DNA from: Chondrosia reniformis | Taxonomy: Eukaryota > Porifera > Demospongiae > Chondrillida > Chondrillidae | DNA: 64,000 nt | NCBI GenBank assembly: GCA_947172415.1 | Contig: OX359196.1 | Coordinates: 6,511,901 to 6,575,900, forward strand | Direction: 5' to 3' | Shown: piece by piece, positions 19,722 through 21,056 of the stretch | Layout of the letters: every line of letters begins with the position of its first letter | How positions within the stretch are numbered: position 1 is the first letter of the stretch | Made by a program: the position numbers and the translations under genes | The notes under the pieces: generated by a model | What the model was told of the DNA's origin: nothing | What the model saw: the letters and a program-made list of their open reading frames with translations, nothing else | Databases searched by the model: none

Positions 19722-21056
19722 TCATGACTTGAGAATAACTTGCAGTTGAGAAATGAGTGATTCTGCACAAGCCAGCCATCTTTCACTCAAGTATGCTGCC
19801 ACAGTAAAGTCCACTCTCTGAGTGCTGTACACAAAAAAGTAGTGGTACAAGCAGAATATCACATACCTACGTACATATCAATACACACATTCTACCTACA
19901 CATGTATATATATGTATAACTGTACGTATACTTATCAAGATATATAATATACACATGCTTGTTACATGGATTAATTAAAGGCTCCTGTGTAATTAATAAA
20001 ACTTACCTATCACCACTCAAATTATAATAGCAATCATCAGGGATTTCCCCCTTCCATTTCTTGATTACAATTGGACAAATAGCATTAGAAGGAATCTCTT
20101 TAGCCTCCAGCCTTCTCCTATACATATGTATATCAAATGTATCTGGTACTAGTATAGAGGCATATAGCTGGTGCATTAATCCATGCACAATTTCCTCCGT
20201 GACTACCTCATTGCTCTCAGCTCTGTCCTGCAATTCTGGGAGGCAAACCATTCTTCTGACAGACAACACACCATTCCTTTACACCTCCTCAATGCACCAC
20301 CAAGCTACATACGTACATATACAGTTCATAATACATAGCAAGTTACCATAGCAACATAACAAGATAACGTATTTGTTAATCTCTTTACCTCTGCATCCCA
20401 CAATTCACCAGGTGAAATCTACAAATATCAAGTAAAAAGTTGAATGTAAGCTTGGTTCCCTAAATCTATTCCACTAACTTGTTGGATGTCAATCCAAATT
20501 GGTATTCCTTGCTCCAGGAGCTTCCTCATAATGGGCAATACTACATCCTACAAGCACAAGTACACTTGATAAGAGTGTATATGGATAGACATGCTATAGC
20601 CAGCACACACTTACCAGATCTTTTGATGCATAGGATATGAATATGTATCTCCCTGGCTTCAATCTAGGAGGATCCGGAAGCTCTTCTCCAGTTGATGTGA
20701 GACTAAGATTGTTTACAGAGTTGGAAGGGTCCTTTTGTTGATCTAAAGTCGCAATAAATTTATTAGTAATAATTAACCATATACCACTGAAGGAGGAGGA
20801 TTGATAAAAGATAAATTTAACCTTTTTTGCTTTTATTCTCATAAACTTGTGTTTCTACTTTCAACACTTGCATTTTCTTTGGGCCAATTCCGTCAATTTT
20901 AGACAACTCATCCACCGACTTTATTTGTCCATGATGACTGCGATAATTTACTATGTTGGACGATATTGTACCTCCAATTCCATTAATTCTTTTAAGGTCT
21001 TCCAAACTACAAGTATTAATGTCAAGTTTTTCAAACTGCTTTGTAATTTCGTCCAT
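19722..21056 (-). CDS. Helix-hairpin-helix/TIR fusion protein
   Basis: Seven exons on the minus strand: 20822-21056, 20615-20742, 20479-20547, 20389-20418, 20207-20304, 20007-20117, 19722-19824; 774 nt, 257 residues. Residues about 10-68 are a ComEA-type double helix-hairpin-helix (INTCSLEDLKRINGIG; KSVDELSKIDGIGPKK), a fold that binds DNA without sequence preference. After a linker (79-108), residues 111-215 form a TIR domain: YIFISYASKDL (strand A, box 1), LEQGIPIWIDIQQISPGELW (BB loop), ALRRCKGMVCCLSEEWFASQ and NCRTELRAM (helix C) and ICPIVIKKWKGEIP. E182 in W-x8-E sits where TIR NADases keep their catalytic glutamate. The family resembles bacterial-type TIR_2 more than Toll receptors. No membrane segment, death domain or SAM is seen. 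I infer a cytosolic or nuclear signalling enzyme; substrate and trigger are unknown. The frame change inside 20003-20304 is explained by an 89-bp intron (20118-20206). Confidence 0.85.

Follow-up and report, generated by a model that had tools for sequence, protein, structure and literature searches.

A predicted gene of the demosponge Chondrosia reniformis encoding a double helix-hairpin-helix domain followed by a TIR domain

Does the minus strand at positions 19722-21056 of the window (the whole stretch of 64,000 nucleotides analysed here, C8:6511901-6575900, on chromosome 8 in the genome of Chondrosia reniformis, a demosponge) code for one protein of 257 residues in which a helix-hairpin-helix (HhH) domain is joined directly to a TIR domain, and what could such a protein do? 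Both domains are present, in this order and on the same strand, and the joined gene looks real. Our preferred reading, to which we assign a probability of about 0.4, is that a single sponge gene with introns encodes a small soluble protein; its (HhH)2 domain would bind DNA, and its TIR domains would gather and signal. If this is true, a very short path would link DNA to TIR output, through a DNA-binding-type domain fused straight to a TIR, and sponges would have a further use of TIR_2 domains beyond receptors, MyD88 and SARM1.

Gene structure and location

The C. reniformis genome is 117.37 Mb in size and consists of 14 chromosomes and the mitochondrial DNA; the available text of its description gives 8.13 Mb for chromosome 8 and a gene count of 17,340 (PMC12181767). 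The assembly that we searched has 117,379,552 bases in 15 contigs.

The HhH-TIR model comprises 257 codons and a stop codon in seven exons, all of which read open. All six introns are of the GT-AG type and measure 79, 67, 60, 84, 89 and 182 bases in 5′ to 3′ order. Translation starts in exon 1 (20822..21056), which encodes the entire (HhH)2 domain (residues 1-78). Exon 2 (20615..20742) encodes an acidic linker (residues 79-108) and strand A of the TIR domain (GRYIFISYASKD), exon 3 (20479..20547) helix A and strand B (VVLPIMRKLLEQGIPIWIDIQQ), and exon 4 (20389..20418) the BB loop (ISPGELWDAE). Strand C and helix C are encoded by exon 5 (20207..20304), the strand D region (AICPIVIKKWKGEIPD...) by exon 6 (20007..20117), and the VDFT box, the last helix and the stop codon by exon 7 (19722..19824). 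The spliced product has the same length as the protein in the initial annotation, with Glu182 in the same place.

A mitochondrial carrier gene lies tail to tail with the HhH-TIR gene (Mito_carr, matched in two pieces with E 2.5e-48 and 1.3e-17). The plus-strand gene that lies head to head with it was scanned in three pieces: one matched Peptidase_C78 (E 3.3e-15), presumably indicating UFSP2, and no Pfam family matched the other two.

A probable single transcript

The HhH domain is contained entirely in exon 1, and intron 1 (20743..20821, 79 bases, phase 1) separates it from the TIR-coding exons. Several features argue for one gene: the two parts share the strand across a gap of 79 bases, intron 1 begins with GT, ends with AG and preserves the phase, exon 1 has AAG immediately before the donor GT, a TACTAAT stretch lies some 20 bases upstream of the acceptor AG, and in exon 2 no in-frame ATG was found upstream of the TIR when the sequence was read. 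The donor (AAG/GTTAAA) is weak, which counts against one gene or is neutral. By script, 60 GT/AG pairs with an open frame into the TIR were found around the exon 1-exon 2 junction, so an open junction is weak evidence by itself. Ten of the 60 pairs retain residues 1-64 complete, and among the listed pairs only the chosen intron both leaves exon 1 entire and has its acceptor right after TACTAAT. By our own arithmetic, the probability that an HhH gene adjoins a TIR gene by chance is about 0.003, before the same strand and a gap of less than 100 bases are required; the calculation used 4 HHH_3 loci and 7 TIR_2 loci (both counts include the HhH-TIR gene and some matches below cut-off) and 17,340 genes.

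The locus might instead give two overlapping or adjacent products, a 79-residue HhH protein ending in unspliced intron 1 and a TIR protein starting at an ATG of exon 1 or in an unseen exon. In the first bases of intron 1 the frame of exon 1 meets a TAA, and AATAAA also occurs in this intron, thus intron retention or early polyadenylation would yield the 79-residue HhH-only protein. An out-of-frame ATG within exon 1, whose frame (MRIKAKK...) is open into the TIR, could begin a TIR protein lacking the HhH domain, and the weak donor fits such an arrangement. Against two products, the 79 bases leave little space for a second promoter, the alternative start overlaps the HhH frame, the intron is phase-matching and has its TACTAAT, and the gene's remaining five introns, of 60 to 182 bases, are short as well. 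We regard two products as unlikely; judged from these sequence features, the HhH exon and the TIR exons very probably share one transcript.

The N-terminal domain

A Pfam scan of the 257-residue protein at E values up to 1 returned nine families, four above and five below their cut-offs. HHH_3 (PF12836) matched residues 8-64 (E 2.7e-17; 63.1 bits with a cut-off of 27; profile positions 3-59 of 65), and the HHH family was also above cut-off (28.1 bits vs 24). GIG turns begin at residues 26 and 56, one in each hairpin. The solved structures (PDB) nearest to the HhH part were EEPD1 (E 5.1e-15) and ComEA (E 1e-08). The N-terminal part had been described in the initial annotation as a ComEA-like double HhH, a description supported by the HHH_3 match and the structural matches. 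All nine matches of an NCBIfam scan of the protein were below cut-off, among them the ComEA-type models comE (56.6 vs 152.35) and TIGR00426 (45.7 vs 53.1).

What the sponge protein shares with EEPD1 and ComEA is the ComEA-like (HhH)2 domain. EEPD1 differs in that its matches contained two HhH stretches, and it has a nuclease domain; ComEA is a bacterial competence protein without a TIR. C. reniformis has a separate EEPD1-like locus (L003), so named from an HhH followed by RIATWNLKQF.

A structure model computed from the single sequence, using exon 1 read through without splicing (79 residues, the exon itself giving 78), predicted helices at residues 3-9, 18-24, 31-42, 48-51 and 59-76, with a mean pLDDT of 54.2 and a pTM of 0.36. 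The HhH part is slightly basic (pI 8.73; 13 Lys and Arg vs 11 Asp and Glu). Not every (HhH)2 domain is a DNA binder: the family of PsbU, which is a photosystem protein, was matched too, below cut-off. On balance the HhH part probably binds DNA, and DNA sensing by the protein is plausible judging from the family.

The TIR domain and its nearest relatives

TIR_2 (PF13676) matched residues 112-231 (E 6.1e-20; 72.4 bits with a cut-off of 28; profile positions 1-109 of 122), and TIR (PF01582) was also above cut-off (24.9 bits vs 21.3). With TIR_2 and HHH_3 both above cut-off in one 257-residue frame, the profile search agreed with the earlier proposal of a full TIR next to the HhH domain.

No ARM or SAM, Death, or LRR or Ig family was among the Pfam matches at E up to 1, and no membrane helix was visible by eye. 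The protein thus has the architecture neither of SARM1, nor of MyD88, though MyD88 is among the nearest TIRs, nor of a TLR/IL-1R-type receptor. Like SARM1/TIR-1, it would be a soluble TIR protein of an animal, in which a small helical domain precedes the TIR and the catalytic position is held by a glutamate; in SCOP, SAM and HhH domains share one fold group. SARM1 differs in having ARM and tandem SAM domains before its TIR.

When the TIR domain alone was compared with the PDB, Cat1 and AbTir came first (E 0.005-0.011), followed by MyD88, all of them weak matches (E 0.005-0.025). With the full-length query MyD88 (E 0.004) was ahead of AbTir and Cat1 (0.01-0.02), so neither adaptor nor enzyme is favoured by the sequence. 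A TIR profile built from six sequences placed bacterial NADase TIRs, Cat1 and SARM1 above TLRs and MyD88 (best 60 of 79 matches), an order that leans towards bacterial NADases because three of the six input sequences were bacterial.

The logic of the protein recalls prokaryotic TIR effectors. In TIR-APAZ short Argonautes, retron-TIR, TIR-SAVED and Thoeris systems the TIR is activated by a part that senses a nucleic acid or a ligand. The likeness is in logic only. The TIR part matched retron-TIR, Thoeris and SAVED-TIR profiles weakly (its sub-cut-off NCBIfam matches included FxsC, retron-TIR and a Thoeris protein), the nine PADLOC matches all fell within residues 71-206, and TIR-APAZ chains were matched by the six-sequence profile. 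No sensor domain was matched in common with these systems, and the sponge gene has introns. AbTir, TcpC and Cat1 differ from the sponge protein at its other end, as none of them was among the 12 PDB matches of the HhH part.

The initial annotation had placed animal TIR domains mainly on receptors, MyD88-type adaptors or SARM1. The range is broader: sponges and ctenophores carry TIR_2 genes reported not to be homologous to the TIRs of TLRs or MyD88 (PMC12909245), and in amphioxus the TIR has been described in 28 domain combinations, of which 20 are particular to it (PMC2575513), both as stated in the available sections of these reports. The TIR_2 proteins of Dysidea avara, counted as 18 in the published table and 19 in the published text, and of Mnemiopsis are of the same TIR_2 type as the TIR studied here (PMC12909245, PMC11797021).

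Residues at the NADase positions

In the PDB alignment Glu182, encoded by exon 5, is aligned with the catalytic Glu208 of AbTir. Asn178, encoded by the same exon, occupies the position of the tryptophan of the WxxxE motif, which is therefore absent from the protein. Five residues are needed in both AbTir and TcpC: S140/S176, R151/R187, D167/D203, V193/V229 and E208/E244 (PMC11374754, available text). We mapped these positions by eye on the alignment with AbTir, leaving out Arg215 and Tyr238, which that study also probed in AbTir. Three of the five are identical in the sponge protein (Ser115, Asp141 and Glu182), Cys167 is a conservative replacement at V193/V229, and the arginine of R151/R187 is lost, its place being taken by Leu125. 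Trp204 of AbTir, which corresponds to Asn178, is needed in AbTir, whereas Trp240 is not needed in TcpC (PMC11374754, same portion). The earlier interpretation of the protein as a DNA-binding/TIR fusion with a glutamate at the NADase position held in part, for the architecture and for the alignment of Glu182 with Glu208; the WxxxE tryptophan and the arginine of R151/R187 are not kept.

According to the available text of PMC7075850, more than 70% of TIR domains have a glutamate at the catalytic position, a share that exceeds 90% for the TLR1/2/6/10 subgroup; the text names SARM1 as the sole animal TIR with known NADase activity. The same source states that in SARM1 the tryptophan four residues before the glutamate, replaced by Asn178 in the sponge protein, also binds ligand. 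These data, the missing tryptophan, and the rank of MyD88 as first TIR match of the full-length query, close behind the NADases when the TIR is used alone, are consistent with a non-enzymatic adaptor: a single fused protein whose TIR would only bind other TIRs, and whose HhH domain would sit on DNA or act as a protein-protein or oligomerising module. The retention of Ser115, Asp141 and Glu182 and the dispensability of the tryptophan in TcpC speak against it. We hold the adaptor to be a possible reading, short of an even chance, and that the TIR is an enzyme seems to us no better than tentative. Taken together, the residues appear to argue neither strongly for nor strongly against NAD cleavage.

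Occurrence of the domain pair

The genome searches read the assembly exon by exon and scored the best candidates only, therefore the counts are lower bounds. Five candidates gave at least four HHH_3 matches: the HhH-TIR gene, two loci on contig C12 and one on C5, the last below cut-off. Among these four matches from the 117.4 Mb genome, exon 1 ranked first (E 3.9e-16). TIR_2 gave at least eight matches at seven loci including the HhH-TIR gene, three of the matches being below cut-off, and TIR (PF01582) at least four, with the HhH-TIR gene not among them. With the exon 1 protein as query the HhH-TIR gene was the sole match listed; the TIR protein gave at least five matches, four in the gene itself and one on C7. 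None of the three other HHH_3 loci was found to share a contig with a listed TIR locus. The architecture thus occurs in one copy among the genome matches listed.

The TIR on C7 (C7:4879254-4879640; L006 1399-2016) is the nearest TIR paralogue among the matches listed (31% identity over 74 residues). It belongs to a TIR_2 protein of one open frame (206 codons, 70.3 bits) and has a tyrosine aligned at the WxxxE tryptophan position.

A prokaryotic or viral origin was considered and, as far as close relatives go, rejected. None of 50,697 phage records matched, and the five matching plasmid records out of 72,556 all matched within residues 111-233, none over 80% of the query. Pattern scans confirmed none of 38 stretches of genome contigs and none of four stretches of viral contigs, and a scan of genome contigs with a plasmid TIR confirmed none of 64. 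The scans detect close relatives only, so a more distant HhH-TIR protein may exist in prokaryotes.

The HhH-TIR pairing was not found in the available parts of the literature searched, nor in the prokaryote, phage, plasmid and virus collections. The word "hairpin" occurs nowhere in the accessible main texts of choanoflagellate, sponge, ctenophore, cnidarian and amphioxus surveys, and "hairpin" or "HHH" has no occurrence in those of the two sponge and ctenophore TIR_2 papers (PMC12909245, PMC11797021). We regard the product as a TIR protein whose partner domain is unusual.

The single copy among the genome matches listed, the coincidence of the domain boundary with a phase-1 intron and the lack of a two-domain relative would all suit a recent, lineage-private accident of exon shuffling without a selected joint function, or a decaying gene. 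The absence of relatives says little about animals, since the collections covered prokaryotes, phages, plasmids and viruses, and the seven open exons and the good scores of both domains are at odds with decay. Accident or decay appears improbable to us.

A possible DNA-scaffolded TIR assembly

The predicted protein begins with an (HhH)2 domain similar to those of ComEA and EEPD1 and ends with a TIR_2 domain, the two being separated by a linker of 30 residues; this layout suggests how a DNA-assembled TIR could work. The (HhH)2 domain would bind DNA regardless of sequence, several copies would align along one DNA, and their TIR domains would assemble side by side. TIR domains work through assemblies, and AbTir with an NAD analogue forms a filament, according to the available text of PMC7075850 and PMC11374754. 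A DNA-binding partner domain would supply the scaffold for such an assembly, whose output would be either the recruitment of other proteins or the cleavage of NAD. We infer a DNA scaffold for TIR assembly as the most economical reading of the domain anatomy. Several points count against the preferred reading as a whole: the weak donor of intron 1, the replacement of tryptophan by Asn178 and of arginine by Leu125, the rank of MyD88 above AbTir and Cat1 with the full-length query, the low confidence of the HhH fold model, the PsbU match, and the lack of a relative with the same architecture in the prokaryote, phage, plasmid and virus collections.

A bolder version, which we think rather unlikely, would have this single protein serve an early-branching animal as a DNA alarm. 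Misplaced or damaged DNA would be coated by the (HhH)2 domain, the TIRs aligned on it would form a shared active site, and the cleavage of NAD would produce a signal or kill the cell, with no part played by cGAS, STING or an inflammasome. The protein is small enough to be expressed whole, therefore DNA switching of an animal TIR is testable in a simple assay.

Other TIR and HhH loci of the genome

A TIR_2 match at C4:8085809-8086015 (L010) is preceded by an open frame that looks Death-domain-like by eye, thus this locus is probably the sponge MyD88. On C12 an HHH_3 protein (C12:293223-293375; L004) scored 27.4 bits vs a cut-off of 27; its later part reads RNase H-fold-like, which we take to be as in mitochondrial TEFM. 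At C11:4608703-4611342 (L007 655-3294) one stop-to-stop frame of 880 codons matches TIR_2 in two stretches (76.4 bits together) and has after them a region with sub-cut-off matches to the SLOG families LDcluster4 (22.5 bits vs 26.3) and STALD (17.3 vs 24). An animal protein with TIR and SLOG would presumably resemble the two halves of bacterial Thoeris.
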